From the IMG/VR virus record IMGVR_UViG_3300010150_000048, positions 1-40,261 of that record: a stretch of 40,261 bases of DNA. The stretch is one strand, 5' to 3'. This document shows positions 7,384 through 37,409 of this stretch, piece after piece. The notes under the pieces are model-generated. The model had not been told where the DNA came from. It made no database searches and was given only the letters and a program-made list of their open reading frames with translations. Position 1 is the stretch's first letter. Each line of letters starts with the position of its first letter. The position numbers and the translations under genes were made by a program. This DNA is from a virus.

Positions 7384-7391
7384 GTATTTAT
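7384..7391 (-). promoter_or_regulatory. Late-type promoter motif overlapping a stop codon
   Basis: The minus strand reads CTAAATAAATACAATG, with the exact 8-mer ATAAATAC. The TAA stop of the giant gene (7388-7390) lies inside it. The 204-residue gene begins 16 nt further on, so its leader would be very short but still includes TAGGA. Confidence 0.6.
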
Positions 7392-10300
7392 TTAGGTAAG
7401 TCAACCTCTTCAGCTCTTAAGAACTGTGCTATTGCATTTTTTGTCTTTCCTAACGTTTTTCCTGAATCATTCCAAGTTTTACCAACTTTTCTGACTACTG
7501 TTACCCTAACACCATCCGCTGGTGCTGTTATTAGTGTTAATATATTGCCAGAAACACTAAATTCTGCTGGTGCTGTAATATCGCCTTCTGGACTGTCTTG
7601 AGCAACTGTTGCATCAAACATTGCAATATCACGTTTTCGTAGACGTTTACCGCCTGCGAACACTTCAAATTCGTCAACACCTTTAGTAGGTGTCCAATCT
7701 AATGAGTATTCTGTTGAACTTCCATCACCAATATACGTGTTAATTAGTGTTTTGTCCTGGTAAGGAACAGTTTGTTGGAAACCTTGATCAAAGATTTCAT
7801 CACCTGTTTCGTGCATATCTTTAACTCCAGTACCAAATGTACCTCTACGTAACTGTGTTAAACTGTTACTATCCTTAACCATATACTCAATACGCTCACC
7901 ATTAATGAAAATAACGCCTGGTGTATTTGTAGTTTTATCTGGAACAAACATACTATCTGGGTTATCTACTATAATTTCTTTATCAAATGGTTTGAGGTCT
8001 TGTACTAATCTATATTTATTATTATCTCCAAGACGTTTGTACACTGTTCTGTTAAGCATATCCTTAAATACTCTCCAACCAAACTTTTTAACTGTTGGAC
8101 CTGTTTCAGCGAACTGTATAATCTCAATAATATCATTTGCTGTTAATGGTTGTGCCATTCTTACAAATAAACGATCGTCTGTAACTTTGTAATCAACACT
8201 TGGCGTTTGTAACTTGCCGTTAATAACAATCCAAACATATTCAGCATCAAGTGTTTGTCTTTCAAGTTTAATTAGACCTGCAAGTAAATGATTGTATTCA
8301 ATATCTGCCGCACTTTCAAAGTCAACAGTAGTTCTTGTAATAATATCGTAATTCTTACGATCAATCTCTTGTACATCGTGTTTACTAAAGTGTGTAACTT
8401 TGATTGTAGTATCTATTGCTGGTACAGTATCTAATGTTAGTATGTTGTCAGTAATTGTATAATCGCCATCTGTTGTTACAAATATATCAAGTTTGTCGCC
8501 TGCTTGTGCAACATTCTCAAAAATTTCAACACTTGAGTTAGCAGGACGGAAAATAAAGTCTGAAGTATATGTTAATGCATTACCGTTAAGCAATACAATA
8601 ATATCATCAGCACCTAATGTACCGCCTGGTTGTTGCCAGTTACGTAATTGATATTCTACTCTGCTGTCAATAGTAAATGATTCGTTATAACCTGCATTAA
8701 GAATATTATCGCCAACTCTTACAATTATATTATGACTTGCAGGTAAACTACTAAATGGTGTTGTGCTTAATTCATAACTTGCACTACTTCCATCAGCAAT
8801 CAAGTTATCTGTTTTAATTTCACTAAATGTTTGTGCTTCACTTGCATAAATTGCAAAGTTAATTACTGCGTCATTGCCAGGTGCTACACCAAATGTTATT
8901 GCAACTTTGTTTGCAGTATCATAAGAACTATCAGTTGTTTCTAAAACGTAATCAGGTTTTTCGCCGTCAACGGTTACAATACTATTTAAGTCTTCTCTCC
9001 AGTCAACACTTGTAACAAACTGTATTGTTGAACCATCACCTCGGAATTGATCTAAGTCAAGAATCTTATCACCGTTACCACTCATTGAAAGTATATTAAC
9101 TCTTTCGTTAAGTGCTGGTGCACTTGCCATTGTAATAGTTTTGTTTTTGTAATCAACTGTGTAAGTGGATTGTAATTTAATTATGTTATTAACTTTTACT
9201 AACAATGCATCTTTAGACTGTGGTATGCCGTTATAAGCAAATACCGTAGTTGAATTATCGCCAACGTATGCAACACTTTCAATAACACTTGCGCCACTTC
9301 CAACCCTATCGTAAATTTTCATATCAAGAGTATCTAATACTTGTCCTGGAATTTGTTCTTCAGGACCTTTACTTGTTAACTGTGTTACAAAGCCGTCACC
9401 GTCAATGTTAATATCTTCTGGATTAATACCTGTTGCACTTGCATATGCTAAGTCGCCACCTTGTACTAATGTATCGTATGCTCTTGGATCAGGTACAAAC
9501 GAACCGTCACTTGTATTTTTTCTAAATATTAATACATCGTCAGCACCCGGACTGTTAATACCGTTAATATCTAATCCATCATTGTCAAGGAAGATAGTTT
9601 GTGTTGTACCATCACCTGTTAGTGTTGTAGTCCTTGCGTTTGGATTAGTTGGATTGCTTGGATAATTCGGATCATCAATTCTTGTACCATTCAAGTAAAC
9701 ATTATATTCAACACCATTTTCTAATGGCTTAGAAAGTGTTACACTAATTGAACTTCCGTCTAAACGTATTACTTCATCTTCGTATGTATTATCGTATGAA
9801 TCATAAGCGCCTGTGAACCAACCTTCTGTTCCCCAACCAGAGCCGCCACCAAAGTCGAAACTCTTAACTTGAACGCCACCGTAATCAATACCGTCCATTA
9901 ACTGTCCAAGATCGTTTGCTAACTGTCCTGTAGTTGGATTGTAGAATAAGTTAATTCTATCTTGTGCAGTTAGTAATGAAATTTCTTTCTTATAATCAAT
10001 TGATATATTACTGTTATTAGCCGGAGGTGTTGTAAATGTTATTTGTCCTATGCTACGATTATGCGTTCTTCCTACACTATCAGTAATATTTGAAACTGTA
10101 TAACCACTTGGTAATACTTCAATACCGTCTACCATTACTGATACTTGATCGGATTTAACATCCATTGGCCATTTCAGTTTAAAGTTATACTTGCCACCTG
10201 TGCCTACAAACGTTTCTGTTTCTGCAAGTGTTGTAATAAAGAACGTTCCTGTTACTCTATCAAACTTAACAGTCATGTGTGTAGTTCTTAGGTTTGAGTT

Positions 10301-13300
10301 GCCTATAATTGCACTTGCTTTACCAACTGTGCCACCGTCTGCTACTGTACCGTTAAGTACTATTGTGGGTGCGGACACATACCCCTGGCCCGCATTGTCT
10401 ATTTTAATTTCTGTAATTTTTCCACCACCAACGTATGCTGTTGCTTTGGCTCCTGTTCCGCCACCGCCAACAAACTCTACACCCGGTGCATTTTCATATC
10501 CTGTACCTGCATCAAAAATATCTACTGATTTGATATTAAAACTTGCATTGTCTTTCCAATGCTTACCTGGATAAGTGTCTAAAGGTAATGCTGATTGTAA
10601 TTGATCGTCAACTACTCTAACTGTCTGTGGAATAATTTTTCCTGCAACATCGCTGTATACTGGAGGTAAATCAAAGTCAGTAACCATAGATGATGCTGTG
10701 TCTTTACCTTCGTATGTACTTAGGTATTCTCTAATCTTAGATTTATATGGTTTAACTTCTTTTACATATTCTTCATAACTTTCTAAGAAGTCATTATTAA
10801 ATGTAATATCTTTTCTTAGTGAACCAATATTATGTTTTGCTTTGATAAACGATGTTTTAAACATCCAATCAACAAATTTTTGTTCTGATAAAATGTAACG
10901 CATTTGTGCAAAGAACAATTTATTGTAATCAATAGCAAGTTCGTCAACAAATATTTTATCTCTTAATGCTTTTAAGATAATACGCATTTCATCAATTGGT
11001 TGTAAGTCAAATGCACTGTCGTCATAACCAAATGAATCGTAACCAATTAGTTCTCCGCTGTAATCATACAGTGACTTATCTAATTCTATTGTTGCATTTT
11101 GTCTACCAATAGTTTTATAGTTAACTGTATAGTCTACATTTGCTTGTGAATCTACTTTTTCTAACAGTAACCAACCGCCTGAGCCAACATTATTAATCTT
11201 AACAATACTACCAAACGTGTCTTGTAGTGATTCTAACTTATAAGTTTCGTCAATAACATAGTCTGCTTTTGTTAAAGAATTATAACCTGTAGCATACCAG
11301 TCAATGTAACTCCAATAAGGTTGTACATCATATCTTTGACTCTTAATTCTATTCCAAATTACTGTACCGCCAACATATTCATATAATGACCATTTGTTTT
11401 CGTATGTTGTGTCAGTTGTTGTAAGAACTGTAAATGGTCTTATTCTAATAGTATCTGTTTGTGCATAGTTAGTACCACTTTTAACAACTGTTGCACCTGT
11501 AATCTGTCCTACGTTGTTCATTGTAAGAGTAACTTCAGCACCTGTACCTGATACTGTTGTAATTGCTACTGTTGGTACTGTTTTGTAACCGTATCCTTGT
11601 TCAGTAACGTCTGCTCTTAGCACTTGTCCGTCTTGAATTGTTAAACTAACTGTTGCTTGTTTAAGTCTACCTACTGGTACAAACTGTAATTCGCTATCAT
11701 TGTCAATTTGTCTATCAAATTTTCTTGATGCTATTGTTGGAATAGGATCATTAGTTTCTAAATCACTTAAATCAAAGTCGTCAATTAAGATTTTTTGTTT
11801 TAGTGAGATGTTAACTCGTTCAACAAGTTGTTTTAATGCTTCAATCCTGTTAACAAACATTGTTTGTCTTGGCTCATTAAGAATACCGTACCTATCTTTT
11901 TCAGTTAACTCTCTGGCTGGTACTGGTCTTCCCTGCTCGTCAAATCCAATTAAACTATCAAACCATTTACGTTCTAAATCTGTTTTAGGAACACTTGTTT
12001 CTAACCCGTCTGTAATAATCTTGTATTGATTGTGTACATTTTTATCAGTTTCTTCAATATTCCAATATGCAAATTTAAGAATAGTGTCATCACCTGTAAT
12101 AGAACTTTGTAAGTTATGTAATGTCCATTCGTTCTTATCAAGCATTGTTGCAAATTTTAGTCCTGCGCCTGATGGATCTCTAATTAACTCTTGTACATCA
12201 GCGGCACTAATTGTTCTTCCTGGTACATCTGGTGTTGTTTTCTTATTACGTACCCAGTAGTAATAATAAAGTGTAAATTTTTGTGCTTGGTCGTCATAAA
12301 CACGTCTTGAACTATAAGCATTGTCGCCGTATTTCGATGTACCACTAATTCCTTCTGCTAATCCTGATTCAGTATCCGCTTGTTCGTCCCATTCACTTGG
12401 TAATAAATCACTTTCTACCCATTCGTAAATTTCAACTTCTGTTCCTGGGAACACTGAATTCATTGTATTACTTGTAGTGAAGATATTTCCTGTGTTACTG
12501 TACGGATTAATAAATCTTACAGCATCAATATCCCACCATAATTTACCAACATTGTTTGTTGTGTCAAACATTGTTTCGTCTTTTACAACTGTTGTATCAG
12601 TTGCTATGTTATATGTTGAAGGATCATATGTTGTTTTAAATGTTAACTCTGTTTCAGCCGTTCCTGCAATTTTTCCTTGTGCTGGATCAATGTAATCAAG
12701 ATATTCAGTAACCTGATTTGTATTTTTATTGTATAAACTAATACCTTTAAATCTACTAAGGTCAACTAACGGTCTTTCAGCTCTAATTTTTTCCCATAAT
12801 TTAGTATTAGGAGTTGATCTATAATCTAATATAGTTCCTTTGCTGTCGTTATCATCTCTACTATATGTTGGTATACCAACATAAATGTGGTTACCGTTGA
12901 TGAACATTGTTCTACCAAAGTATAATGCTTTGCTATCTGCAAATTCTAACTTGTCTGCATACACATATCTGTTACCTAACAGTTCATAAAGGAATACTTC
13001 ACCAGTATCAATAAGTGATGTATTGAATAATGTAGTTCCGTTATCAAATGCTGTTATGCCGCCGTCAAATCCTGTAATACTTGTAAGGTCACCACCTGCT
13101 GAATGTACTGCAATTCTATCAGTTCCGTACTTAACAACTGATCCAAACTTCTCGTTTGCAATTCCTTGTGGACCAACCAAGTGTTGTACTTGTTGGAATG
13201 TACCATTAATGCTTTCGTAAATGAATACTGTACCTTGATTTACATAATCAGCACTATATTTAGGAGCACCTACTGCAACAAATCTACCATCATTGGAAAC

Positions 13301-16300
13301 TGTTACTGAACTTCCGTAGCCAATGCCGTCTGCGTATGCATCAATTACTTGACTGAATAAAAAGTGTCCTAATACTTTTCTATAAATTGCTAACTTAGGT
13401 GTATTAATGGAACTATCTACAGCATCTCCGTACTTAACAATAGTTGCTAATACTTCTCCGTCACTGCTGATTCCAAATTGTGTACCAAATTCATATAAAT
13501 TATTATCTTGTATTGCACTGTCGTCACCAATAATAAAGCCTGTGTCGTTTGGTAAGTATCCATTCAGATCAAGACCTTCAGTGATTGCTGTCCAATTAGA
13601 TTCATTCCACGCACCTGCAATAATATTTGTTTGTGCCTGCCAAATTTGTTCAAGATATTTTACATACTCGCCGGTTTTATAAGTTACAGTTGTACTGAAA
13701 TCACCTTTGTAGTCTACATCTTGTCCTAAAATCCAACCTTTTGTTTTGTCGTATTTTATAACATTAATTCTACCTGGTTGTGCAAACGTTCCGTTACCTT
13801 TGCTTAACAAGTATGCAGTATAAGTTCCATCATTGTGTGTAACCATTTCAACTGATGCACCTAAATGTCTACTACTTGCCGCATCTGGCATAATGTAAAT
13901 GTTATGTAAATTATAGAAGTTACTTGCATTTCTTTCGTAGATAGCATATGCACCTTGTCTTGTTAATGCACTTGCTGTACCAGATGAGTTTGCAGTAATA
14001 TTGTAAACTCTTTCCCAGTCGTTATTAGTATTACCTGGAGGATTTGCATCTCTTGGAATACCTGACTGTTCTACACTGTCAAAAATCCAGTATTCAAACC
14101 CTTGTAATGTTCTTGTTGAACCTGGTGTTAAGTTTGTTCCTCTATCTACAACAATAATTGGACCTGCTGTATTTGATTCTAAATGTCTTGTGTTAATTGT
14201 ACCCATGAGTCTTACAACGCCTACGCCTTGTGACCCACCGTCAATGCTTATACTTGTAATGTCGCTGTTATCTGAACCAAACTTCCAAGTACCGTTAACA
14301 TTTTTAACCCATAGTCTGCAAGTATTAAACAGTTTTTCTACTCCTGCAACTTCTGCCGTTGCAAGTGTGTCGTTGTCTTGTACTGTATCTCCAACAATAG
14401 GAATAAAAGGATTACCGTAATTAGGGTTGAAGTCAGCATCACCTGGTGTTGGCGAACCTCTATCATCAAATGCTGTAAGATTTACTTCAATCCAACCGTT
14501 CCAAATATCATCAATAGTATGTTCTGTTCTGTTTAGATAGTCGTGTGTTATCTCTGGACTTATCACAGCCGGATCTTGAATTAAATTATCTGCTGTTGCA
14601 TATTCATTAAAGAAGAAGTTAAATGTATTTCCTATTACAAGACTACTTGTTAAAGTTGCTGGTGCTCTAAATACCCATTTGTCAGAAAGTACATTACCAC
14701 TATCACCTAAGAATGATAAAGTTTCAATATAACTTGTTACTGTAGGATTCTGGTCTGTTAAATTATCTTGAATTCTAAGTGCATTTTCGTAATATTTTAC
14801 ACTACGTGATACACCTGTTTTAATAATGTCTTGAATAACAAGGTATGGTTTAGTTTCAATAGTAGTTGTTGAAGTGAAACTTGAACTCGGTCCGTCAATT
14901 TGCCACCAACCGCCTAATACATTTTCTTCTTGTTGTACTGCTCTTTCAAATGCACCTATTTGAATATCACCAACAAATAATGTACCTGTTGACTCAAACA
15001 ATCCGTTTACATCTTTAACATAAATTAAACTTCTATTATCACCTGTAATGTTTACTTTAGTAACAACTGCAACTGCTGTTGCACTACTAATTGTTTCTCC
15101 TACACTTGGAATAGCCTGTGTATTGTCAATTAATAATATATCATCAATTTTTTCTACAATAGCATGTTCGCCATCTAAAAACGCTTTAGTCATTAATGGA
15201 TCATTGTTGAACGGTGTTACACCACCTGGATATCTTGTGTTAACATCATTCCATAGTAGTTGTAACTTATCACCTACTTCTGTTCCATCGTATTGTCCTT
15301 TAGGTGCTCTAATTAACATGTGATCTGTTAATTCTTCAGGGAAACTAAAATTACCTCTTAATATAAAGTATAAGTTGCTGTACACATTATTTTCTAATGT
15401 ACTAACAAGTGCTTGTAAATGCGAGTTAAATGTTTGATATTCTAAACTTAAATCTTGTGGCTCAACTGTTGTTTTTGCTTTCCAGTACTGGTTTGTAAAT
15501 TTTACAATATCTTGTTGTACGTAAGTGGTAGCACTATTAAAGTCGCCTTTGTAAAAGGACTTAACATTAGAAGCATACGGAATACCAACAACTAACCATT
15601 TACCGTCTGTGGAAATATTTGTACTTTGACCGAAACTGTTTAACCCACCAGTCATAAAGTCTGTTGGAGCCTCAAGTATTTGAGATTGTACAGCCTTAAG
15701 ATTTTCTGATGCTCTAAAGTAAATGTCTACTCTACCATTTGTTGAGTCTTCACTCGATGGTACACCAATTGGAATAATGCTGTTAGTTGCATTTGCACTA
15801 ATACTTGTTCCAAAGTCTCTATCGTCAGTACCTAAAATACCTTCAATACTGTTACTAAACATTTGTTGCGTTTGTGCATATTTGTTTTTATTTTCTACAA
15901 CTGCCCATCTGCCATTTTCGTCTTTGTCAACCCAAACTCTTTCGTTGTTGCTAACATTGTCTCTTGTAATTTTTTCATTAACGCCATTAAGATCAGCAAC
16001 CCTTACACTGTTTAACTGTGTAATGAATCCTGAAATTTCTGGTAAGTCTGGTTGTTCTACTGATGTTGTAGCAAAGATAGTATTAAGACTTGTTCTTTGA
16101 ACTTTAAAGAATCTATCTACATCACCTGTACCAAGCACACTAATAATATCGTCTTTTACGAACGGAGGTGCTTTACCTGTTGTAATCTCTATCATACCCG
16201 AACTATCCGAGTTTACAATAGAACTTACTTTGAATGGTGTTTCAGTTTGGCGCAAGACATCCCATGTTTGGCCTTTTTTAGCAACCCAAATATATTTTCC

Positions 16301-19300
16301 TACATCTATTGTGTTAGGATCAAGTCCAAGTATATCATCATAGTTTGTAACTTTAAATTCAGCATCTGCGTCAGCAACATAACCTGCTGTCTTGATATAT
16401 GAATCATCTTCCGGAATATATTTTGTTGGGAACGGAGCATGATCGTAATCGTCTGGTTTACTGTATACCTCTGATGGTTCATATCTGTAAACAAGATCAG
16501 TTAACAACGGATCAATGCTTGGTACTAATTGAAACGGTTGTGGACTTAATCTAAACTTGCCTTCGTCCAGTTTATATTCAATTTCTTCAAAGCCACCGTT
16601 GGCTCCATATTGGCCAACTTTAAATGCCCACTCTTCAAAAAATTCTAAACTTGAGTTTTCTGTATTTGATAAAGCATCAAACAATTTACTTAATGAATTT
16701 ACTGTTCCTTTATCTTGAATATATCCTTGATAGAATTTGTACTGTGAAACATCATCATTAATAATGTTTTCAATATACTTACGTTTCTGATAACCTGTTA
16801 AGTGTTGTGCAATTCGTTGCTGTTCACTGTCAAAGTTATCTGTATCTAAATCATAAAAGTCTGCAAATTGATTTGCTTTATAATCTAAGTTTGGTACAAG
16901 TTCTGCTGTAGGTTTTTCAGGTAATTTATACCAGTCTGTTTCATCAAAGTTTGTAGAACCTGGAATTTTATATTTTGCACTATAATAAAATGTTTTATAT
17001 AGAACTACTGAAGCAATATCATAATCTACATTTTCTTCCCAATCTTTACACACAACATTATCGTATGTAAACCCAGGAATATTTAAACCACCATTCCAAT
17101 CAGTACTTCTGTAACCTAATATTTTAATACGTGCTTGTCTGTATCCAGGACCTGGATTATAAATTGTGTCATTGAATACTGTTACGTTGTCAATTAAACA
17201 AACATGTTCTTTTTGTACAAGTGGTAATTTTAAAAAGTAAATTCCGTCAGCAGTGTTTTTAAGTTTTAATCCAAAATTGTTTTGATTACTACGTAATGTA
17301 TTTGTAAATTCTTCTTTAAGTTTGCCGCCGTCTGCTTTTAATAACGTATAGTCATAAAAGTTATCAAAGATATTATCTACTACTGAATATGGTCTGCTAA
17401 ACTGTAGATTAATAGCACTTGGACTTAGAGTAAGTAATGCTCCTTCACTCCAGTTTTGTGTAGTCCAGAATAAAAATTCTCTTGCACTTAATTCCCAGTT
17501 TTCAATTGTTTCAAGTTCTCTATTAAATCCACTAAAGTCAAAGCCTTGTTTTATTAAGTACTGTTCGTAACCTAATATAAAGTCAATAACGTCTTGAGTA
17601 GTTCTTAGCATTGTACCGTAATTCAATTTACTTGGAGTACTGTCAAATGCTCGTCTTAGAATTCCTTCTCTGCCACCTTCCATTGGAAGTTCAGCAAGTT
17701 TAACAAAATTTTCATCTGTAATAGTTTGGAAACTTCCTGAATTTTGTACACGGAAAAAGTTAGTAGAAACTCGTATAATTTGTCCTGCTTGGTAACGTTC
17801 TCCTGGTACCCATTCTAAGAAGTTTTCACTAACACCACCTACGTTAACAACTGGGTCAGCGGAACGTTCAATATGTTTGTAATAGTCAAAGTATGGTTTG
17901 CTTTTGTCATAACCTTTAACAACAAATCCTGCTGTACGTTTTTCAATAATTACACCACTGTAAGAAACAGTGTCAACTGGAGAACTTGTGTTTAGAATAA
18001 TTTTATAATTTTCTTCTGGTACAAAAACGTTTCCTTTATTATTAGGAGTTCTTGAATCAAGTAATAACTTGAATTTATCTTTTTCAGTGAAGCCGCCTAT
18101 CTTAAATCCAAGTTGTACTTTAAGGCTCTTAATGTTCTCTTTATACGCTTTGTTAAGTTTAGTTACGTCTGCATTAATATAGTTGAAAATATAGTTAATT
18201 AGACCCGCTGTAGTTACACGAGTAGTATCATCTACGGTGTTAGGGAATACTAAATTCTTAGGTTCTAAACGTTTTTCACTTGACGAATAAACTATGCCGC
18301 CTGCTGGATTACGTTTAATTCTTGCTCTATCAAATCCAACACCTATTACCTTAGCAGGTTGATGAATTAAAAATGCTGTTAGTAATGCAAATGGATATTC
18401 TGCACTTCTGCGCCATGCAGTTTCTACAGGAGATTCGTCACCAAATACAAATGAGTTATTTGTTTCAGGAACAATAAGTCCTTGTGCATATCCACATTCA
18501 TATGGACTTATTAAATTACCTTGTGTGTCTACAGGAATATATTTTGTTAAATCTTTTCTCTTATAATTTGTTTTGTATCTAATAGGATTATTAGGCTCAC
18601 GTACTAAACCTTTCTCAAGGTCTTCCCAAAGAATTAAATTTTCTTTTGTGTACGGTGCTGGGCCATATACTGTTTCCCACCAAGTTGGTTGATCTATGTA
18701 TCCTAAAACTTTCCATGGAGTTGTGTGCGGAGTATCTGTACTTAGATACTCTTTATAAATTGCTCTCCAATATCCTGGTAACGGTATTCCGTCTGGATCA
18801 GACATTATAGAATAATTCCATGTAAATGAATTTGCTCTATCGTAGAATGATATATCTGTGTAGTCAGGATCACCTGCAATGCTTAACCATTCAACAAAGT
18901 CAGTAATAGTAACTTCGTCTGCATCAAGTTTTGTAAATCCTGTGTCTCTTGTTTTATGCCCAAGGAAACTGTCAATATCAAATATGTTAATATCGTAACT
19001 TACTTTAACATTGTTATAAATTCTTTTTTCAATTTCTAAAAGAATATCATCTCTATAATCTTCGTATGCTTTAGTAACACTACCATCATGTCCTTTAATA
19101 AGCACACGCGGTGTACTATATGTGTTGTCAGTAAATATTACTGGTTTGTGTAACGGATACAATCCTAACTTTGTTGGTGTAGGTGGAATAAACGAAGCAT
19201 CTGTTGATTCGTATTCGTAAATTGTAATAGTGTCATCTACAGCAAGAACAAAATCATTAGTAATTTGAATAAAGCCTTCTGTTGTAAATGTATAATCTTG

Positions 19301-22252
19301 ACCGTGTAACATCTGTACATTGTTGTGATATACATAAACTGCGTTAGCACTAATTGTTTTTAAGTCAAATGCTGTTGTTAAACTATAAAATTTGTTGCCT
19401 GGATCTGTAACAGTAAATTCACGCTTGTTATTAGCACCTGAACCAATCATGTCTGTCCAGTAAAATGCTGTTTGCTTTGATTTTTCAGACTGCCATTTCT
19501 CAATTACTTTATCAGTCAAGTATTGTGCTGATCCGTCTAAGCCTAATTTTTCTGAAATATCTACTACTGCTCTTTTAAATTTTGCATATTCTTTTCTTGC
19601 AAATCTAAGTGCTTTTACAATATTATAATCTTTGTTTGTAATATGATACAATGATAACGGAATAGCACCTGAGTGCTGTACAAATTTTGTACCAAGTTTT
19701 GCAAGTCCGCCTAAGTTACGTAAGTTACTTGGTCCTGGAAAAGATCCTTCAAACCCTTTAACGTTACTAATAATAGTGTTTACATGATCAGTTACTTCAC
19801 CATATGTAAAAGTAGTGATGTTTTCATTAAGTGGGTTATTCTGCAAGTTAATCGGAAACTCGTATTTTCCGTTTTCGTTTTTGTCTGCTTCACTTGTAGT
19901 ATGGATTATTAAGTTATCGCCATTTTTTAGTGGAGTAACAAACTGTACATAAGCAATGCCGTTTTGTCTGTTTAATGACCAAGCACTTTGTCTTACATTG
20001 TTTACAAATACTTGTACATCTAAATTATTTAAATCGCCACTTCTGTCATATACATCAATTGCAAAGGTATTGTTTTGTCCATCAACTGTATACTGACGTA
20101 TAACTTTTTGTATACTGTCTGTGTCTGCTTTTTCCCAACCACTTACATTTGTATAAGTGTTTAGTCCTGTATATTTTCTTAAAGTAGACGAATCTGTATT
20201 TTGTGTGTAATCTTTTTGTCCAAGTTGATATGTAAAAGAGTCTGTTAACAAATCAAAGTTAAAAACAATATCTCCACTGTTTTCAATATTTCTATAAGTT
20301 AACGGTATTCCTATTACAGGATCATTAGCACCTGTACCTTGTTTGTAACTAAACAAACAACTACCTGTAAATGTATTTGCATTATACGTATCAAAACTTA
20401 CATCAGTGATATCATAAAGATTAAATTTAGGTTTTTGATTTGTTGTTAATTTGTCTTGTGCTTTGATCCACTTAGATCCATTGTACCAGTAAATCTTACC
20501 TGAGTTTACTGTACCACCTGCAACTAATACTGTTTCATTTTCTAAAGGAGTAGTATCTGTTTCATCTTGCAACGCAATTTGTCTTTGACCGTTGTGTGTG
20601 ATAAATTTTACTTTGTAAATTCTACCATTAACTCTGATGTCAGGATCTTTAGTAAACAATACACGCAGTCCTTCAGTAAGTTCAACACCGTCAACGTTAT
20701 AACCTTCACTGCCTTCAATAGTACTAAACACATCACCTGTAAAGTCGTCAATCAAATCAACGTTTGTTTTCTTCATACTACCAAAGTTATACAAACGTAA
20801 CCCTGCATTAAATTCAATAATAGGACGTTTAGCACGTTGCGTTTGATCTAACGAAACTTCTGTACCATTTGCTATCGCAGTTTTTTCAATAGTGTCTTTG
20901 TGGAACCATCTGTTGTGTCTACTCCATTGGTTACCGTCAATACTTGCTCTATTGATTGTAATATAGTCTTGTTCTTTAGGATAGTTAAGTGCTTGACCAA
21001 AAGGTAACTTATCAAAGTTTTCTGTATCAAATGGTACAAATATATTTGAACTATATGCTCCAGTAATTTCAAGATCTGCTTTGTTGATTAGTTGTATAGA
21101 TTCACCAACACCTTCAACATACCAATATCCTTCGCTGTACTTTGCTGGTGTTACATCACCTAAAAACTCTACTAACATACCATTGGATAAATCAGTATCT
21201 GTTCTTGTTGTGTAAGTTAACTTTTGTAGAATTTCTTTTTCTACATCTATCTCTGTATTTTCTAAAATATTATAAAGTGTAACTAAGCCTGATGTGTTTA
21301 CATCATTTTGACTGATATAAAATAATGTATCAGGTGCATCAAGTGGCACTGTAAATTTAAGTGTGCCTTTTTCTACATACACTGTTGCTGATTCTACACC
21401 GTCGGTATATAATGTAGAGATATTATCTCCGTCCTTGAATCCAGTTATACCGCCTTCGACAGGCTCTACTATGTATTCACCTGTGTCGTAGCCATCGGTG
21501 TCATATAATTCTGCTTCAAACTTACCAGATGCCAACACACCTTCAACTGTCTCAGTTATAATCGCTTGTCCTGGAGTAAATGCTCTATTGGTTGCAAATG
21601 CTATTGGGTGTCCAGGTGTATCAATCTCGAATATGTAAGTTTGACCTTTGTAAAGTTTTAGAGTAGGATTTTGTGTTAAACCTGTTGGGGTAAATTTATA
21701 CGCTACATTGTCATCATTCTCCTCCACGGATACTTTAAAAGTAGATACAATTTCTTTGTTCTGTCCAAAGATAGGTAATACTTGTGGTCCTGCTGGAAGC
21801 CAATAGTATTCTCTAAAGTTTGTAAACTTATCCCAATCAATATGTGGTTGCCACGCATAATATTCTTGTGCGTTAATTTTACTATGATCAGGATTTCTAT
21901 TACCAAACGCTCTTAGTTGGTTTATGTAATCATTATAGTCTTTGTAAAAGTCAACATTGTCTGCGTTGTCTTTTAAAACAACTGCTGGTTCTAATTGGTA
22001 ATTTTGTCTATCGTCTGAAACGTCACTAATATAGTTGTCTGTTGACTGAACTGCTTTTGCGTCTCTACGCCCATAGTATGAATTAAGTTTTTCAACTTCT
22101 CCTGGATTCATAAACTGATCCAGTGTGCTTGTTAAAAACTTTTTATTCGCTGGTGTTCTAAAATACTTAGGTAAGTGACTTACACTTGTTCGATTCTCGC
22201 TATCGTCGTTTGGACCAATTGGAATATCATTCTGGTCATTATCGTAAGCCAT
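7388..22252 (-). CDS. Giant virion (baseplate/tail) protein, 4954 aa
   Basis: One uninterrupted 14.9-kb frame encodes this protein. Its start overlaps the gp6 stop as TAATG, and its place is that of T4 gp7 (about 1,030 residues), so it is nearly five times larger. Visible parts (approximate residues): N-terminus with HLPKYFRTPANKKFL and YYAWQPHIDWDKF; carbohydrate-binding-like W/Y motifs near 1480, 1735, 2235 and 2850; a wedge-like KGTVNSLSKLFDAL segment near 1850; FG-GAP-like propeller blades near 2145-2210 and again 2920-3120; GxGY..P repeats near 3555 and 3915; serial beta domains opening with GDGS/T..F near 4210-4540 and 4840; and a C-terminal end with FINGERIEYM, LRRGTFGTG and IAQFLRAEEVDLP. 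There is no signal peptide or membrane segment. It is probably a wedge-to-fibre scaffold that also contacts the host surface. Its equation with gp7 rests on position and a few gp7-like phrases. Confidence 0.9.
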   Translation of the reverse strand: MAYDNDQNDIPIGPNDDSENRTSVSHLPKYFRTPANKKFLTSTLDQFMNPGEVEKLNSYYGRRDAKAVQSTDNYISDVSDDRQNYQLEPAVVLKDNADNVDFYKDYNDYINQLRAFGNRNPDHSKINAQEYYAWQPHIDWDKFTNFREYYWLPAGPQVLPIFGQNKEIVSTFKVSVEENDDNVAYKFTPTGLTQNPTLKLYKGQTYIFEIDTPGHPIAFATNRAFTPGQAIITETVEGVLASGKFEAELYDTDGYDTGEYIVEPVEGGITGFKDGDNISTLYTDGVESATVYVEKGTLKFTVPLDAPDTLFYISQNDVNTSGLVTLYNILENTEIDVEKEILQKLTYTTRTDTDLSNGMLVEFLGDVTPAKYSEGYWYVEGVGESIQLINKADLEITGAYSSNIFVPFDTENFDKLPFGQALNYPKEQDYITINRASIDGNQWSRHNRWFHKDTIEKTAIANGTEVSLDQTQRAKRPIIEFNAGLRLYNFGSMKKTNVDLIDDFTGDVFSTIEGSEGYNVDGVELTEGLRVLFTKDPDIRVNGRIYKVKFITHNGQRQIALQDETDTTPLENETVLVAGGTVNSGKIYWYNGSKWIKAQDKLTTNQKPKFNLYDITDVSFDTYNANTFTGSCLFSYKQGTGANDPVIGIPLTYRNIENSGDIVFNFDLLTDSFTYQLGQKDYTQNTDSSTLRKYTGLNTYTNVSGWEKADTDSIQKVIRQYTVDGQNNTFAIDVYDRSGDLNNLDVQVFVNNVRQSAWSLNRQNGIAYVQFVTPLKNGDNLIIHTTSEADKNENGKYEFPINLQNNPLNENITTFTYGEVTDHVNTIISNVKGFEGSFPGPSNLRNLGGLAKLGTKFVQHSGAIPLSLYHITNKDYNIVKALRFARKEYAKFKRAVVDISEKLGLDGSAQYLTDKVIEKWQSEKSKQTAFYWTDMIGSGANNKREFTVTDPGNKFYSLTTAFDLKTISANAVYVYHNNVQMLHGQDYTFTTEGFIQITNDFVLAVDDTITIYEYESTDASFIPPTPTKLGLYPLHKPVIFTDNTYSTPRVLIKGHDGSVTKAYEDYRDDILLEIEKRIYNNVKVSYDINIFDIDSFLGHKTRDTGFTKLDADEVTITDFVEWLSIAGDPDYTDISFYDRANSFTWNYSIMSDPDGIPLPGYWRAIYKEYLSTDTPHTTPWKVLGYIDQPTWWETVYGPAPYTKENLILWEDLEKGLVREPNNPIRYKTNYKRKDLTKYIPVDTQGNLISPYECGYAQGLIVPETNNSFVFGDESPVETAWRRSAEYPFALLTAFLIHQPAKVIGVGFDRARIKRNPAGGIVYSSSEKRLEPKNLVFPNTVDDTTRVTTAGLINYIFNYINADVTKLNKAYKENIKSLKVQLGFKIGGFTEKDKFKLLLDSRTPNNKGNVFVPEENYKIILNTSSPVDTVSYSGVIIEKRTAGFVVKGYDKSKPYFDYYKHIERSADPVVNVGGVSENFLEWVPGERYQAGQIIRVSTNFFRVQNSGSFQTITDENFVKLAELPMEGGREGILRRAFDSTPSKLNYGTMLRTTQDVIDFILGYEQYLIKQGFDFSGFNRELETIENWELSAREFLFWTTQNWSEGALLTLSPSAINLQFSRPYSVVDNIFDNFYDYTLLKADGGKLKEEFTNTLRSNQNNFGLKLKNTADGIYFLKLPLVQKEHVCLIDNVTVFNDTIYNPGPGYRQARIKILGYRSTDWNGGLNIPGFTYDNVVCKDWEENVDYDIASVVLYKTFYYSAKYKIPGSTNFDETDWYKLPEKPTAELVPNLDYKANQFADFYDLDTDNFDSEQQRIAQHLTGYQKRKYIENIINDDVSQYKFYQGYIQDKGTVNSLSKLFDALSNTENSSLEFFEEWAFKVGQYGANGGFEEIEYKLDEGKFRLSPQPFQLVPSIDPLLTDLVYRYEPSEVYSKPDDYDHAPFPTKYIPEDDSYIKTAGYVADADAEFKVTNYDDILGLDPNTIDVGKYIWVAKKGQTWDVLRQTETPFKVSSIVNSDSSGMIEITTGKAPPFVKDDIISVLGTGDVDRFFKVQRTSLNTIFATTSVEQPDLPEISGFITQLNSVRVADLNGVNEKITRDNVSNNERVWVDKDENGRWAVVENKNKYAQTQQMFSNSIEGILGTDDRDFGTSISANATNSIIPIGVPSSEDSTNGRVDIYFRASENLKAVQSQILEAPTDFMTGGLNSFGQSTNISTDGKWLVVGIPYASNVKSFYKGDFNSATTYVQQDIVKFTNQYWKAKTTVEPQDLSLEYQTFNSHLQALVSTLENNVYSNLYFILRGNFSFPEELTDHMLIRAPKGQYDGTEVGDKLQLLWNDVNTRYPGGVTPFNNDPLMTKAFLDGEHAIVEKIDDILLIDNTQAIPSVGETISSATAVAVVTKVNITGDNRSLIYVKDVNGLFESTGTLFVGDIQIGAFERAVQQEENVLGGWWQIDGPSSSFTSTTTIETKPYLVIQDIIKTGVSRSVKYYENALRIQDNLTDQNPTVTSYIETLSFLGDSGNVLSDKWVFRAPATLTSSLVIGNTFNFFFNEYATADNLIQDPAVISPEITHDYLNRTEHTIDDIWNGWIEVNLTAFDDRGSPTPGDADFNPNYGNPFIPIVGDTVQDNDTLATAEVAGVEKLFNTCRLWVKNVNGTWKFGSDNSDITSISIDGGSQGVGVVRLMGTINTRHLESNTAGPIIVVDRGTNLTPGSTRTLQGFEYWIFDSVEQSGIPRDANPPGNTNNDWERVYNITANSSGTASALTRQGAYAIYERNASNFYNLHNIYIMPDAASSRHLGASVEMVTHNDGTYTAYLLSKGNGTFAQPGRINVIKYDKTKGWILGQDVDYKGDFSTTVTYKTGEYVKYLEQIWQAQTNIIAGAWNESNWTAITEGLDLNGYLPNDTGFIIGDDSAIQDNNLYEFGTQFGISSDGEVLATIVKYGDAVDSSINTPKLAIYRKVLGHFLFSQVIDAYADGIGYGSSVTVSNDGRFVAVGAPKYSADYVNQGTVFIYESINGTFQQVQHLVGPQGIANEKFGSVVKYGTDRIAVHSAGGDLTSITGFDGGITAFDNGTTLFNTSLIDTGEVFLYELLGNRYVYADKLEFADSKALYFGRTMFINGNHIYVGIPTYSRDDNDSKGTILDYRSTPNTKLWEKIRAERPLVDLSRFKGISLYNKNTNQVTEYLDYIDPAQGKIAGTAETELTFKTTYDPSTYNIATDTTVVKDETMFDTTNNVGKLWWDIDAVRFINPYSNTGNIFTTSNTMNSVFPGTEVEIYEWVESDLLPSEWDEQADTESGLAEGISGTSKYGDNAYSSRRVYDDQAQKFTLYYYYWVRNKKTTPDVPGRTISAADVQELIRDPSGAGLKFATMLDKNEWTLHNLQSSITGDDTILKFAYWNIEETDKNVHNQYKIITDGLETSVPKTDLERKWFDSLIGFDEQGRPVPARELTEKDRYGILNEPRQTMFVNRIEALKQLVERVNISLKQKILIDDFDLSDLETNDPIPTIASRKFDRQIDNDSELQFVPVGRLKQATVSLTIQDGQVLRADVTEQGYGYKTVPTVAITTVSGTGAEVTLTMNNVGQITGATVVKSGTNYAQTDTIRIRPFTVLTTTDTTYENKWSLYEYVGGTVIWNRIKSQRYDVQPYWSYIDWYATGYNSLTKADYVIDETYKLESLQDTFGSIVKINNVGSGGWLLLEKVDSQANVDYTVNYKTIGRQNATIELDKSLYDYSGELIGYDSFGYDDSAFDLQPIDEMRIILKALRDKIFVDELAIDYNKLFFAQMRYILSEQKFVDWMFKTSFIKAKHNIGSLRKDITFNNDFLESYEEYVKEVKPYKSKIREYLSTYEGKDTASSMVTDFDLPPVYSDVAGKIIPQTVRVVDDQLQSALPLDTYPGKHWKDNASFNIKSVDIFDAGTGYENAPGVEFVGGGGTGAKATAYVGGGKITEIKIDNAGQGYVSAPTIVLNGTVADGGTVGKASAIIGNSNLRTTHMTVKFDRVTGTFFITTLAETETFVGTGGKYNFKLKWPMDVKSDQVSVMVDGIEVLPSGYTVSNITDSVGRTHNRSIGQITFTTPPANNSNISIDYKKEISLLTAQDRINLFYNPTTGQLANDLGQLMDGIDYGGVQVKSFDFGGGSGWGTEGWFTGAYDSYDNTYEDEVIRLDGSSISVTLSKPLENGVEYNVYLNGTRIDDPNYPSNPTNPNARTTTLTGDGTTQTIFLDNDGLDINGINSPGADDVLIFRKNTSDGSFVPDPRAYDTLVQGGDLAYASATGINPEDINIDGDGFVTQLTSKGPEEQIPGQVLDTLDMKIYDRVGSGASVIESVAYVGDNSTTVFAYNGIPQSKDALLVKVNNIIKLQSTYTVDYKNKTITMASAPALNERVNILSMSGNGDKILDLDQFRGDGSTIQFVTSVDWREDLNSIVTVDGEKPDYVLETTDSSYDTANKVAITFGVAPGNDAVINFAIYASEAQTFSEIKTDNLIADGSSASYELSTTPFSSLPASHNIIVRVGDNILNAGYNESFTIDSRVEYQLRNWQQPGGTLGADDIIVLLNGNALTYTSDFIFRPANSSVEIFENVAQAGDKLDIFVTTDGDYTITDNILTLDTVPAIDTTIKVTHFSKHDVQEIDRKNYDIITRTTVDFESAADIEYNHLLAGLIKLERQTLDAEYVWIVINGKLQTPSVDYKVTDDRLFVRMAQPLTANDIIEIIQFAETGPTVKKFGWRVFKDMLNRTVYKRLGDNNKYRLVQDLKPFDKEIIVDNPDSMFVPDKTTNTPGVIFINGERIEYMVKDSNSLTQLRRGTFGTGVKDMHETGDEIFDQGFQQTVPYQDKTLINTYIGDGSSTEYSLDWTPTKGVDEFEVFAGGKRLRKRDIAMFDATVAQDSPEGDITAPAEFSVSGNILTLITAPADGVRVTVVRKVGKTWNDSGKTLGKTKNAIAQFLRAEEVDLPK

Positions 22253-31618: not shown

Positions 31619-32515
31619 TTGAAAAAAGTAAATTATTTAAACAATAAGGACTTATTAAAAGAAATACACAAGTCCAAAACAACGTATTGTAGTTATGTTG
31701 ACCAGAGTTATGCTGACTTTGATATTATACTGCCAAGTATAGATAAAATTAATGTTCGGACTATTGCTGAAGCAAAACGTAACAAAGCCAAGAAATTAGG
31801 AACCGCAGATTACGAAGCACGTAAACTTGCTGGTGAAAAAGTAAAACAAGCAGAATGTGCCATTGATTACAGAAAAATGGAGAAGAACGAATTAATTTTT
31901 AGAATTATGACCTTTGATCATATTCCAGAAGAAAAAGGACGTAAAAAGAATCCAAAGACTGTAGCAGATACAAGAGTTAAGTTAAACTTTCCTCCATTCC
32001 AACATTTTAAGTTTGATGAAGAAACACAAGAATTATTGTGTGTTGGTAAAAGTCATTGGGAAGGTGGTATGGAAAACGGTGCGTTTAGTTTGAAGCATGG
32101 TAAGACTACTGAAAAACTTGCTCGTATGTGGATGAAGTTATGTGATAGATACGCAACAAGAGGCAATGTACGTGGATACACATACAATGACGAGATGCGT
32201 GGACAAGCAATTTTACAATTAACACAAATAGGATTACAGTTTGACGAATCTAAGTCTGCTAATCCATTTGCATATTATACTGCGGCAGTAACTAATTCAT
32301 TTGTTAGAGTTATTAATATTGAAAAACGTAATCAAAACATTAGAGATGATATTTTAGAGATGAACGACATGACTCCATCATTTACAAGACAGCAACAAGG
32401 TGAATGGGAAAGACAAGTCGAAGACCAAAGAAAAGCAATGGCGAAGCAAGAAGCACAAAAAATTACTAAGAAACCATTTGTTCCGCCTACTATTAAAGCC
32501 AAGGTGCCGAGATAG
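31619..32515 (+). CDS. gp55: Late-transcription sigma factor, gp55-like
   Basis: This 298-residue protein is well above T4 gp55 (185). The sigma-like core lies near residues 165-245: MWMKLCDRYATRGNVRGYTY, NDEMRGQAILQLTQIGLQFD, SKSANPFAYYTAAVTNSFVR, then INIEKRNQNIRDDIL. This matches the T4 gp55 pattern 'RY..R.N..GYTY.DEM...A......FD..KS.NPFAY'. gp55 directs host RNA polymerase to late promoters of the TATAAATA kind. The N-terminal ~150 residues are charged and carry no domain I know. The C-terminal tail is Lys/Pro-rich and may hold the clamp-binding end. The start is TTG at 31619, set by AGGAG 6 nt upstream; no ATG lies nearby in frame. The stop is 70 bp before gp47. Confidence 0.9.
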   Translation: MKKVNYLNNKDLLKEIHKSKTTYCSYVDQSYADFDIILPSIDKINVRTIAEAKRNKAKKLGTADYEARKLAGEKVKQAECAIDYRKMEKNELIFRIMTFDHIPEEKGRKKNPKTVADTRVKLNFPPFQHFKFDEETQELLCVGKSHWEGGMENGAFSLKHGKTTEKLARMWMKLCDRYATRGNVRGYTYNDEMRGQAILQLTQIGLQFDESKSANPFAYYTAAVTNSFVRVINIEKRNQNIRDDILEMNDMTPSFTRQQQGEWERQVEDQRKAMAKQEAQKITKKPFVPPTIKAKVPR

Positions 32516-35364: not shown

Positions 35365-35570
35365 GCATTGAAGACGACACACATGATAAGTTAACCAAGG
35401 CATACTTGGAATATTACAAAGAACTTGCACTATACCAGAAGCATGGTGGAGAACGTACCATGCAATCAAGCCGAAAATGGCTCAGAGAGATACGCACACT
35501 GGCTAAAATACGTATGGACGAGATTAAATCCGACTTTGATGCCAAGAAAGAGGCGAGGAAAAGATCGTAA
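35361..35570 (+). CDS. Small highly charged helical protein
   Basis: This 69-residue protein starts with MSIEDDTHDKLTKAYLEYYK and is Lys/Arg/Glu-rich throughout (SRKWLREIRTLAKIRMDEIK). It probably forms one or two long helices. It overlaps the gp46 stop (ATGA), so translation is coupled to the recombination genes. The coding region is compact, with an in-frame stop at 35570. I do not recognise a named family. Small proteins of this form next to gp46 recur in marine T4-like phages (recollection). It might assist gp46/47 or bind DNA or polymerase; no sequence motif decides. Confidence 0.75.
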   Translation: MSIEDDTHDKLTKAYLEYYKELALYQKHGGERTMQSSRKWLREIRTLAKIRMDEIKSDFDAKKEARKRS

Positions 35571-35584
35571 CAGTAAGTAAGTTC

Positions 35585-36007
35585 ATGCAGTGGACTTATA
35601 AAAACAAAAAAGTTAAAGAAATCCCAGAAGGCGTAGAGGGGTTTGTGTACATAATCACAAATACCACTAACAACAAAAAATACATAGGCAAGAAGTTAGC
35701 AAAATTTAAGACCACTAAACCACCACTTAAAGGCCGTAAGAACAAACGCAGAGGTTACAAAGAGTCAGATTGGCGTGACTACTGGGGAAGTTCAGACAAA
35801 CTCAACGAAGACGTACAAGCATTAGGCACTGATAAATTCACAAGAGAGATACTTTACTATTGTAACAGTAGAGGCTTGATGAGTTACCTTGAGGCAAGAG
35901 AACAATTTGAACGCCGTGTGTTAGAGAGCGACGATTATTACAACGGTATTATTAATGTTAGAGTTGGCGGTTCAAAAATTCTCCGAGAAGCACTAAACAA
36001 ACTATAG
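35585..36007 (+). CDS. GIY-YIG-type nuclease
   Basis: This 140-residue protein has a degenerate GIY motif as G19-F-V-Y22, and YIG is intact at Y33-I-G35 in the expected spacing. There is a basic Lys/Arg-rich loop at 45-60, then DWRDYWGSSDKL (62-73) and a C-terminal LEAREQFERRVL with E103/E106 as candidate metal-binding glutamates. This is the minimal size for a GIY-YIG domain, with no extra DNA-binding domain, so it is either a free-standing homing-type nuclease or a phage repair/degradation nuclease. ATG 35585 is the first usable start in frame, yet the nearest good Shine-Dalgarno (GAGGAAA, 35555-35561) is some 23 nt upstream. Initiation may be weak or noncanonical. It is the last gene before the structured intergenic region. 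Confidence 0.82.
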   Translation: MQWTYKNKKVKEIPEGVEGFVYIITNTTNNKKYIGKKLAKFKTTKPPLKGRKNKRRGYKESDWRDYWGSSDKLNEDVQALGTDKFTREILYYCNSRGLMSYLEAREQFERRVLESDDYYNGIINVRVGGSKILREALNKL

Positions 36008-36031
36008 GCTATATACAGCACATAAGGTTAG

Positions 36032-36372
36032 CAGGCCAGTATAATATACTGCTGAGTAAAAGGTCCCGTGATAAGGACACTCGTACATATTGATCGACTA
36101 CCCAGAGGTAGGAAGCCAACAAACAAATTGGGCTCACTGGTTGATATAGATTGAATGCTGTCAGTCGAAAAACACAAACACGTACATAAAAACTCTTTAG
36201 CAATAGGAACGAAGCGAGAGGTAGTTGGAAACAACGATGTCGACGTAGGTTGGGAAAGGTCAGAGCCCATTGTACTTTGTGTATAAACAAATTACCTATT
36301 TCCAAGTCTTGGCTGTGACGAGCTCACATGATGTTCAAGATTAGATGGAACCCTTAAACAGGTTCCGTCTGA
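36032..36372 (+). ncRNA. Candidate structured RNA, no known family
   Basis: This stretch has no credible gene and about 42% G+C over 36061-36360, against about one third in a nearby gene counted by hand. Helices seen: 36032-36054 (CAG+CAGTAT with ATACTG+CTG, 2-nt bulge); 36098-36111 (CTACC/GGTAG); 36180-36187 with 36237-36246 (ACGTACAT with ATGT+ACGT, 2-nt bulge) enclosing CTCT/AGAG and a GTTG-GAAA-CAAC hairpin at 36224-36235; 36250-36260 with 36294-36305 (11 pairs, one bulged A) enclosing TTTGT/ACAAA; 36307-36340 (TCTTG/CAAGA around TGTGA/TCACA); 36341-36372 (12 pairs, 8-nt loop). Three G-U pairs (254-301, 342-371, 346-367) and the GNRA loop work only if the plus strand is transcribed. It could be a stable RNA or the long 3' UTR of the gp47/46 transcript. 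I matched it to no known RNA family. Confidence 0.5.
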
Positions 36373-36501
36373 CTGAAACAATCTACATGATGCTAAATTG
36401 CTTCGCAATTATTATATCATTAATTAAAAGATATAATGTTTGAGCGTAAGCGAAAACATAGTTGCTCAAAGAGCAACTTATAGCATTTTAATATGTTTCA
36501 G
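36373..36501. other. Compact multi-hairpin junction between converging genes
   Basis: An outer stem CTGAAACA (36373-36380) with TGTTTCAG (36494-36501) and a second stem ATGCTA (36390-36395) with TAGCAT (36481-36486) enclose four hairpins placed end to end: 36396-36410 (AATTGC/GCAATT), 36411-36437 (ATTATATC/GATATAAT), 36438-36457 (GTTT/AAAC with an inner CG/CG) and 36460-36478 (AGTTGCTC/GAGCAACT). Only about four bases at the junction are unpaired. All main pairs are Watson-Crick, so the fold is possible on either strand. No long U-run follows, so it is not a textbook intrinsic terminator. It could be a two-way terminator, a 3'-end protector or the closing domain of the RNA before it. Confidence 0.5.
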
Positions 36502-36514
36502 TATTCAAACAGTT

Positions 36515-36697
36515 CTAATCGTATAAATCAGGATCACGTCCTAATCCATTTGGTCTTTCCGGATGTACTTCGAGTATTATATACTCTTCATCTGGTTTAA
36601 CTTCTTTTAATTGTTGTACCGTCTGAAATGCTTCACTCTGCGAAAGTGCGGATATGACTACATTTTTAGGAACAACTACAAATTTTGTCTCTGCCAT
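36515..36697 (-). CDS. Small hypothetical protein, 60 aa
   Basis: This 60-residue protein starts with MAETKFVVVPKNVVISALSQ. A short strand (KFVVVP) is followed by a helix (residues ~18-33), a second strand EEYIILEV and a Pro/Gly/Asp tail ending DPDLYD. The layout looks like a compact alpha/beta fold. It runs leftward and converges on the GIY-YIG gene across the structured region. No clear Shine-Dalgarno precedes ATG 36697, and no strong promoter is visible in the 64-bp divergent gap, where a late-type motif points the other way. Coding potential is supported by its balanced composition and by comparable small proteins in marine T4-like phages (recollection). The function is unknown. Confidence 0.65.
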   Translation of the reverse strand: MAETKFVVVPKNVVISALSQSEAFQTVQQLKEVKPDEEYIILEVHPERPNGLGRDPDLYD

Positions 36698-36727
36698 CGT
36701 AAGATTATTTAAAAGAATCTGATTGGA

Positions 36728-36735
36728 ATAAATAG
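36728..36735 (+). promoter_or_regulatory. Late-type promoter motif, plus strand
   Basis: The plus strand reads GGAATAAATAGTTATAG, with ATAAATAG differing in one base from the ATAAATAC of the tail block. It lies 26 nt before ATG 36762, which has AAGGA at 36750-36754. It would place the two virion-type genes to the right under gp55-type late control. Confidence 0.55.
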
Positions 36736-36761
36736 TTATAGTTAAAATAAAGGACTATTTC

Positions 36762-37409
36762 ATGAAAGTTACACAGATCGTTGCTGAATCCACTAAAAAA
36801 CCTGTTTCCGAGGCGCCTGTATCAGGCTTAGCACAGTTTGGTAAGAAAGTTCTTGCTAAAACAGCCGCAAAAGTAGGTGCAAAAAATTTCGCGTCTGGCG
36901 TTGCAGGCAACGTTGACACAGGTGCTGAAGCAAACGAATTACGTAAAGCATGGCAAAATCATCAAGGTTCTATTGGCGGTAAAATGGGTGCTAACGATCC
37001 AGCAGAGTTTAAGCAATGGTTACTTAACAATGGCTTTAAAGGCAAAGATGCAGTCATTGATAAAGCAATGACAGATAATAAAATTACAGGACCGTTTGGT
37101 AAAGGTCCACTTGATAAAGCATTATTACAAATAGTACAGAATTCTAAAAAGGCGTCGGCACAAGGTGCTGGTGCAGATCAAACAGCCACAAAAGCACAAG
37201 CAGGGGCTACAGCAGGTGCAGGTAAAGGCGCTACAGCAGGAGCAAGTGCTACAGCAGGTGCAGGTAATGAAATTCCACAAGGAATTAAAGATCAATTAGA
37301 TCAACTTACACCTGGAGAGAAAAAATATTTAAGTGATACACTTGGTCAAGGTAGTGCTCCACCTAAGGCTACTCCAGCACCAACGGCACCAGCAGGAGCA
37401 ACAGCATAA
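36762..37409 (+). CDS. Virion-type protein, Ala/Gly-rich, 215 aa
   Basis: This 215-residue protein has residues 1-20 resembling a short leader (MKVTQIVAESTKKPVSEAPV). Residues 22-50 are a basic amphipathic stretch. Residues 60-105 hold a helical module (LRKAW, PAEFKQWLLNNGFKGKDAVI) that recurs in the next gene. Residues 130-170 are a low-complexity Ala/Gly/Thr repeat (AGATAGAGKGATAGASATAG), and the C-terminus is Pro/Ala-rich. Proteins of this build are found among structural proteins of marine T4-like phages (recollection). A capsid-internal or ejected role is possible but not shown. The start has AAGGA 7 nt upstream and a late-type promoter before it. The 923-residue gene starts one base after its stop. 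Confidence 0.78.
   Translation: MKVTQIVAESTKKPVSEAPVSGLAQFGKKVLAKTAAKVGAKNFASGVAGNVDTGAEANELRKAWQNHQGSIGGKMGANDPAEFKQWLLNNGFKGKDAVIDKAMTDNKITGPFGKGPLDKALLQIVQNSKKASAQGAGADQTATKAQAGATAGAGKGATAGASATAGAGNEIPQGIKDQLDQLTPGEKKYLSDTLGQGSAPPKATPAPTAPAGATA

Follow-up and report, generated by a model that had tools for sequence, protein, structure and literature searches.

A conserved, pseudoknotted plus-strand RNA with twin repeat loops in uncultured T4-like phages

T4-like marine phages are abundant, and few structured RNAs of theirs have been described. Among the phage RNAs that invite comparison, GOLLD and ROOL are large and pseudoknotted, of unknown function, and often found near tRNA islands (659 nt in one ROOL example and more than 800 nt in many GOLLD RNAs; PMC12286853). 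Cyanophage S-PM2, a T4-like marine phage, has a noncoding RNA, CfrI, that is associated with a homing endonuclease gene; it is about 225 nt long and antisense to both that gene and psbA (PMC2984593). Polynucleobacter-1 (RF01718) is a motif in a 2010 table (PMC2864571), with a model of 141 positions.

The window analysed here, the whole of a virus record of 40,261 bases, encodes on its plus strand an RNA roughly 380 nt long. Its fold comprises about twelve helices with two pseudoknots, and it is kept at a single locus in uncultured T4-like phages, with well over 100 IMG/VR sequences conserving it. It is large and pseudoknotted and lacks a known function, as do the longer GOLLD and ROOL, but has no match to their Rfam models and no tRNA in the window. 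With CfrI it has in common that it is noncoding, comes from a T4-like phage of the sea and is associated with a homing endonuclease gene; unlike CfrI, it is sense and lies beyond that gene. As for Polynucleobacter-1, in one relative (L080) this motif is the 5' domain, 3' of SegE and followed by a 3' domain of the kind modelled below as R2, with the 3' domain and its twin loops falling beyond the L080 match. The RNA is mostly undescribed, one 5' domain variant having been known since 2010; apart from the Polynucleobacter-1 table line, no description was found in the literature searched, from which subscription journals were mostly missing.

The locus and its distribution

An earlier note on this DNA had proposed a new structured RNA at 36032-36372, in a stretch with no credible ORF. 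The structured RNA held, supported by strong covariation, plus-strand folding energy and the lack of a conserved frame; the unit is slightly longer than claimed (Table 1), with a 5' boundary inferred from conservation rather than from a mapped transcript. The claim about ORFs held as well. Those of at least 50 aa over the region lie on the minus strand only (98 and 80 aa), and of 85 homologues only 7 keep the 98-aa frame free of stops for 86 residues or more. The longest stop-free run has a median of 79 aa, against 63 in shuffles, and 80 of these 85 homologues have it on the minus strand, but in differing frames, and no reading frame is conserved through the RNA among them. A protein gene on either strand was rejected on the ORF positions and the 7 of 85 count. 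The G+C content is 42.2%, close to the 42% claimed and above the 35.8% of the whole window, yet it is weak evidence alone, because 90 of 1996 sliding stretches of 341 nt are as rich and a nearby gene (36762-37409) reaches 43.2%.

Comparison with shuffled sequences, which that note had suggested, favored the plus strand clearly over 36008-36500 (z = -3.78, 0 of 100 shuffles as good) and modestly over 36020-36380 (z = -1.84, 1 of 100, unremarkable alone), and did not favor the minus strand (z = -0.11, 49 of 100). The note's failure to recognize a tRNA, tmRNA or intron was borne out: ARAGORN found 0 tRNA or tmRNA genes in the window and 0 in six loci, and the Rfam models of group I and group II introns were not matched in the window or its relatives. 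The suggested Rfam covariance search placed the window in no family, with no gathering-level match in the stretch and none even at E<=10 over 35900-36760. The word "new" held only in part, needing qualification because L080 carries RF01718 as a 5' domain.

Upstream of segE in the window lie a late-transcription sigma factor gene (31619-32515; phrog_12791, E 5.7e-78), a calcineurin-like phosphoesterase gene and an AAA_23 ATPase gene, which we take to be gp55, gp47 and gp46, named after T4. Only a few bases separate the segE stop (36007) from the start of the RNA (about 36012); downstream are a small minus-strand ORF (36515-36697) and a plus-strand ORF starting at 36762. A scan of 35400-36800 gave no promoter-like site on the plus strand. 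Among the small hairpins past the RNA, that at 36460-36478 looks like a terminator when read on the minus strand, and that at 36438-36457, GTTTGAGCGTAAGCGAAAAC, is short and lies soon after the RNA. The motif of the latter, GAGCGNNAGCGAAA, is single-copy in the window and recurs after many homologues, in some of which, judged by eye, GC/GC has become GT/AC. Elsewhere in the window, a 4954-aa minus-strand ORF fills 7388-22252 in the tail-gene region.

Queries yielded at least 80 loci for SegE and 27 for gp46, and blastn in loci so selected found the region again on the 3' side of SegE, conserved with identities of about 68-100%. A pattern for the core of class A, the window's class, matched at least 119 IMG/VR stretches and two stretches in bacterial genome contigs; class A comprises 123 unique cores, with truncated copies counted apart. 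A second pattern, for classes B, C and D, was drawn from more distant relatives downstream of SegE and matched at least 120 stretches, 103 of them unique. Both bacterial-contig copies come from one MAG and have SegE beside the RNA. That MAG is labelled Neomarinimicrobiota; as its two contigs (L348 and L349, 335 and 153 kb) bear T4-like phage genes along with the RNA, they are likely to be phage contigs binned with a bacterium. In the cultured-phage collection, the window as DNA query gave 57 records at E<=10, the best a partial match of 44 nt (E 0.04, 8% of the query), and L080, L323 and L315 gave no DNA match at E<=0.01. The SegE of cultured phage Melnitz is 73.2% identical; neither covariance model described below (R1, R2) matched in 7.4 kb around it.

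SegE lies upstream in 115 of the 123 class-A cores. Forty-one of these cores were first obtained from loci selected by SegE or gp46; among the remaining 82, SegE is present in 74. Among the eight without it, seven have no more than 252 nt of upstream sequence and one, L142, has 6.9 kb. In the 103 B/C/D cores, only 12 of which were SegE-selected, SegE is on the same strand in 86, on the opposite strand in one (L325) and absent from 16, six of which have 3.1-8.6 kb of upstream DNA. It is also absent in 6 of 12 records searched, all fragments. Extra genes stand between SegE and the RNA in some loci, and in four B loci (L049, L058, L060, L066) gp46 is inverted downstream while SegE and the RNA are still together.

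The first downstream ORF is convergent in seven of the eight T4-like loci in one comparison that hold downstream DNA; in L287 a plus-strand ORF comes next. Convergent genes often follow the RNA in SegE-less loci, for example a T4_baseplate protein in L323 (PF12322, E 3e-18; also phrog_150, baseplate hub), a homologue of which (34% identity) follows the RNA in the SegE locus L348 with other genes between. No baseplate-type gene occurs after the RNA before the window's end. L142 represents a different phage type, sharing no gene with the other loci compared; an HNH-like ORF and a weak terminase-small-subunit match are nearby (5023-5421 and 7583-8089). Clusters of GGCA, often 9 nt apart, precede B/C/D RNAs (for example in L264, L323 and L045), with 94 sequences averaging 2.96 per 250 nt and their dinucleotide shuffles 1.13; the class-A values are 2.85 and 1.34, but there the stretch is largely segE coding sequence.

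Fold and covariation

The fold model has 66 pairs in 12 helices, with pseudoknots formed by P1 and P7 (Table 1), and was scored on 41 sequences at no more than 85% identity. In these it is 96.7% paired, against 87.6% in shuffles. Two-sided changes occupy 247 cells, against 73.2 in shuffles (0 of 500 as high) and 20-30 when the model is slid, and are found at 29 pairs against 19.7 (0 of 500). Further pair types exceed the shuffles only slightly (76 against 70.9, 15 of 500) and are less decisive, and the derivation of the model from the same family favors it over its slid versions.

Table 1. Features of the window at and around the RNA; paired and two-sided values are from the 41-sequence set
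Feature	Position	Strand	Details
SegE-type GIY-YIG endonuclease gene	35585-36007	+	140 aa; PF19835, E 1.6e-34, residues 3-123; usual RNA neighbour
Structured RNA, class A	about 36012-36393 (5' boundary inferred)	+	homologue alignment, covariation
P1	36015-36020 / 36156-36161	+	pseudoknot into P6 loop; 99.6% paired; 3/6 pairs two-sided
P2 hairpin stem	36030-36034 / 36049-36053	+	100% paired; 2/5 two-sided
P3	36054-36056 / 36080-36082	+	100% paired
P3b	36063-36066 / 36075-36078	+	87.1% paired; 4/4 two-sided
P4	36087-36093 / 36141-36147	+	encloses variable domain; 98.6% paired; 3/7 two-sided
P6	36149-36153 / 36162-36166	+	98.5% paired; 5/5 two-sided
P7, long-range	36182-36186 / 36271-36275	+	second pseudoknot, crosses X1 and X2; 94.1% paired; 5/5 two-sided
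P8	36193-36196 / 36217-36220	+	surrounds conserved AGGAACGA; 97.4% paired; 3/4 two-sided
P9 hairpin, GAAA loop	36224-36235	+	length varies among homologues
X1	36245-36252 / 36379-36386	+	98.8% paired; one-sided changes only
P11	36245-36250 / 36294-36299	+	excludes X1; 100% paired; 5/6 pairs invariant
X2	36258-36263 / 36369-36374	+	99.6% paired; one-sided changes only
P12	36307-36311 / 36336-36340	+	surrounds first repeat loop; 80.1% paired; 2/5 two-sided
First repeat loop ACATGATG	36326-36333	+	sequence; covariation by identity
P14 hairpin	36345-36352 / 36361-36368	+	98.8% paired; 1/8 two-sided
Second repeat loop ACATGATG	36385-36392	+	sequence; covariation by identity
Small hairpins past RNA	36396-36410, 36438-36457, 36460-36478	+	positions and scan

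The covariation check proposed in the earlier note thus found strong covariation among homologues, both in this model and in our own tree-aware test, which is R-scape-like and uses 20 null alignments, resolving E to 0.05. In 85 distinct class-A sequences the test put 27 column pairs at E<=0.05. Complementarity is 80% or higher in 16 of them, 68-79% in three and below 50% in eight, the last group including neighbours of true pairs and one repeat pair. Support falls on P1 (columns 3-151, E 0; 6-148, E 0.05), P4 (78-136 and 79-135, both E 0), P7 (174-287, E 0) and P9 (215-248, E 0, paired in 80 of 85 with five pair types). In 91 B/C/D sequences there were 11 column pairs at E<=0.1, seven of them complementary and four in repeats.

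The helix blocks that had been folded by hand fared unequally: 36341-36372 held as the conserved hairpin P14, 36307-36340 corresponds to the weaker P12, and 36250-36305 overlaps the mutually exclusive, nearly invariant pairings P11 and X1. The GAAA tetraloop held (P9), and the inference of the plus strand from G-U pairs is favored, since G-U is the commonest pair at several alignment columns (86-168, 37 of 41; 87-167, 39 of 41; 356-506, 41 of 41). X1 and P11 share GUAGGU, each about 99-100% paired with little variation, and because both hardly vary, covariation proves neither; a switch between them is possible and has not been shown. The variable domain within P4 has a longer insert in L126, L163, L191 (alignment A2) and L134, and that of L126 contains GGTTCGAATC, which resembles a tRNA T-loop; ARAGORN found no tRNA in the P4-insert loci.

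Class relationships and Polynucleobacter-1

Two covariance models address the relation between classes, R1 for the class-A 3' domain and R2 for the B/C/D 3' domain, built without class A. R1 scores 157.6 bits in the window and 90.3 bits in L142, with no match in five cultured-phage controls. Among 90 B/C/D-type sources it has seven matches at E<=1 (best 3.7e-4, two from one contig), each just 3' of the motif; it finds L316 (E 0.0057), and does not find L080, L325, L026, L251 or L323 at E<=10. R2 finds the window at 36225-36393 (27.0 bits, E 2.9e-4), which satisfies the test of membership in the wider RNA family proposed here, and five of nine class-A sources in all, the window included; it misses L142, L026, L029 and L325. 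Its best control match (L228, 15.9 bits, E 0.088) is inside an annotated coding gene. Each model picks up members of the other's class where they should lie, and on this evidence the classes are homologous, with the caveat that cross-class matches are few.

R2 also finds the 3' domain of L080 (858-1037; 34.0 bits, E 7.8e-6). In that locus RF01718 matches at 547-687 with 71.8 bits, directly 3' of SegE and before the 3' domain, and this position suggests a larger RNA of which Polynucleobacter-1 is one 5' domain variant. By score, the window falls outside RF01718: the gathering threshold (37 bits) is met neither by the window nor by 14 of 15 loci tested, and nine loci, six of which belong to these 14, give no match at E<=1.

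Twin loops and candidate roles

The two ACATGATG loops flank hairpin P14, so that the window also meets the second mark of the wider family, a pair of identical repeat loops on either side of a hairpin. Within each phage the two are mutually identical, yet they vary between phages; in L142 the loop is ATCATCAAGT, twice. In the 91 B/C/D sequences, repeat columns are identical in 87 of 88, 88 of 88 and 81 of 83 cases, each at E 0, and complementary in 0, 0 and 2; a fourth column pair is identical in 44 of 88 (E 0.05). In class A, columns 344-405 reach E 0.05 by identity, with 1 of 85 complementary, and columns 342-403 only E 0.8. One of 22 loop forms, six to ten letters long, fits 191 of 202 RNAs, the list having been drawn up by hand after inspection of the data and leaving 11 unfitted. 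The repeat finder takes the longest exact repeat and is thereby biased toward identity, a bias from which the B/C/D alignment test is free.

Because the loops are identical without complementarity, a single outside partner meeting both is suggested, by inference only. No excess of loop copies or complements was found in the 202 RNAs (copies 32 against 28.0, sd 5.0; complements 6 against 8.7, sd 3.0) or in their 4-kb flanks (397 against 381.4, sd 18.8; 189 against 211.3, sd 14.8). This search used the first six letters of each repeat, and a distant or protein partner stays possible.

The explanation we prefer, as somewhat more likely than not, is a trans-acting phage noncoding RNA whose twin loops meet one fast-evolving partner; both the role and the transcript are inferred. 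The RNA would probably be co-transcribed with the gp46-segE genes in the window, and its folded scaffold would present two identical short loops to one protein or RNA encoded elsewhere. That partner would evolve fast, both loops following each shift in its specificity, and the exclusive P11 and X1 pairings may act as a switch that exposes or holds the second loop. Against this stand the lack of any known transcript, the lack of a plus-strand promoter-like site in 35400-36800 and the position of SegE upstream in most class-A cores, which also fits a 3' UTR.

As a 3' UTR element of the segE mRNA, the structure would stabilise, end or regulate that transcript. In its favor, 115 of 123 class-A and 86 of 103 B/C/D cores have SegE immediately before the RNA in the same orientation, and in the window few bases lie between the segE stop and the RNA, but it is unlikely: SegE is absent from six B/C/D cores and from L142 despite ample upstream DNA, extra genes intervene in some loci, and the structure is far larger than a terminator. 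Since SegE is missing from 6 of 12 fragments and on the opposite strand in L325, the RNA is not always its 3' UTR. A cis-regulatory leader of the downstream gene is very unlikely. Polynucleobacter-1 is marked "y" in what is taken to be the cis-regulatory column of the 2010 table (PMC2864571), but the next ORF in the window is on the minus strand, the next plus-strand ORF is well beyond it, and convergent genes directly follow the RNA in several loci; as the first downstream ORF can be convergent, the RNA is not always a leader.

A free-standing group I-like ribozyme kept beside a homing endonuclease is just as hard to sustain. The neighbour is indeed a GIY-YIG endonuclease, in L142 an HNH endonuclease ORF lies some 1.5 kb from the RNA, and the crossing of X1 and X2 by P7 resembles, by loose analogy only, the pseudoknot order of the P3/P7 core of group I introns. 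However, Rfam intron models match neither the window at E<=10 nor nine relatives at E<=1, and no interrupted gene was seen. A DNA element, or an overlooked protein gene, with merely incidental folding is all but excluded. The minus strand is more open than shuffles, and direct repeats could be DNA sites, but the open runs are in different frames, that of the window is rarely kept, and two-sided compensatory changes and G-U pairs are marks of RNA. Guidance of SegE by the RNA was also considered (SegE has only 140 aa, most of them covered by the Pfam domain) and was lowered, as the RNAs occur without SegE.

A bolder version of the trans-acting reading, which we regard as unlikely, makes the RNA a device on which one partner docks with both loops or with each in turn, the P11/X1 switch being built in and the loop serving as a specificity code that changes quickly and is perhaps read through base pairing to a target elsewhere in phage or host. 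Whatever the partner, loops that evolve in step by identity rather than complementarity are an unusual signal, one that predicts a shared partner and can be tested, in an RNA that appears to take in the orphan motif of 2010 as one of its 5' domains.
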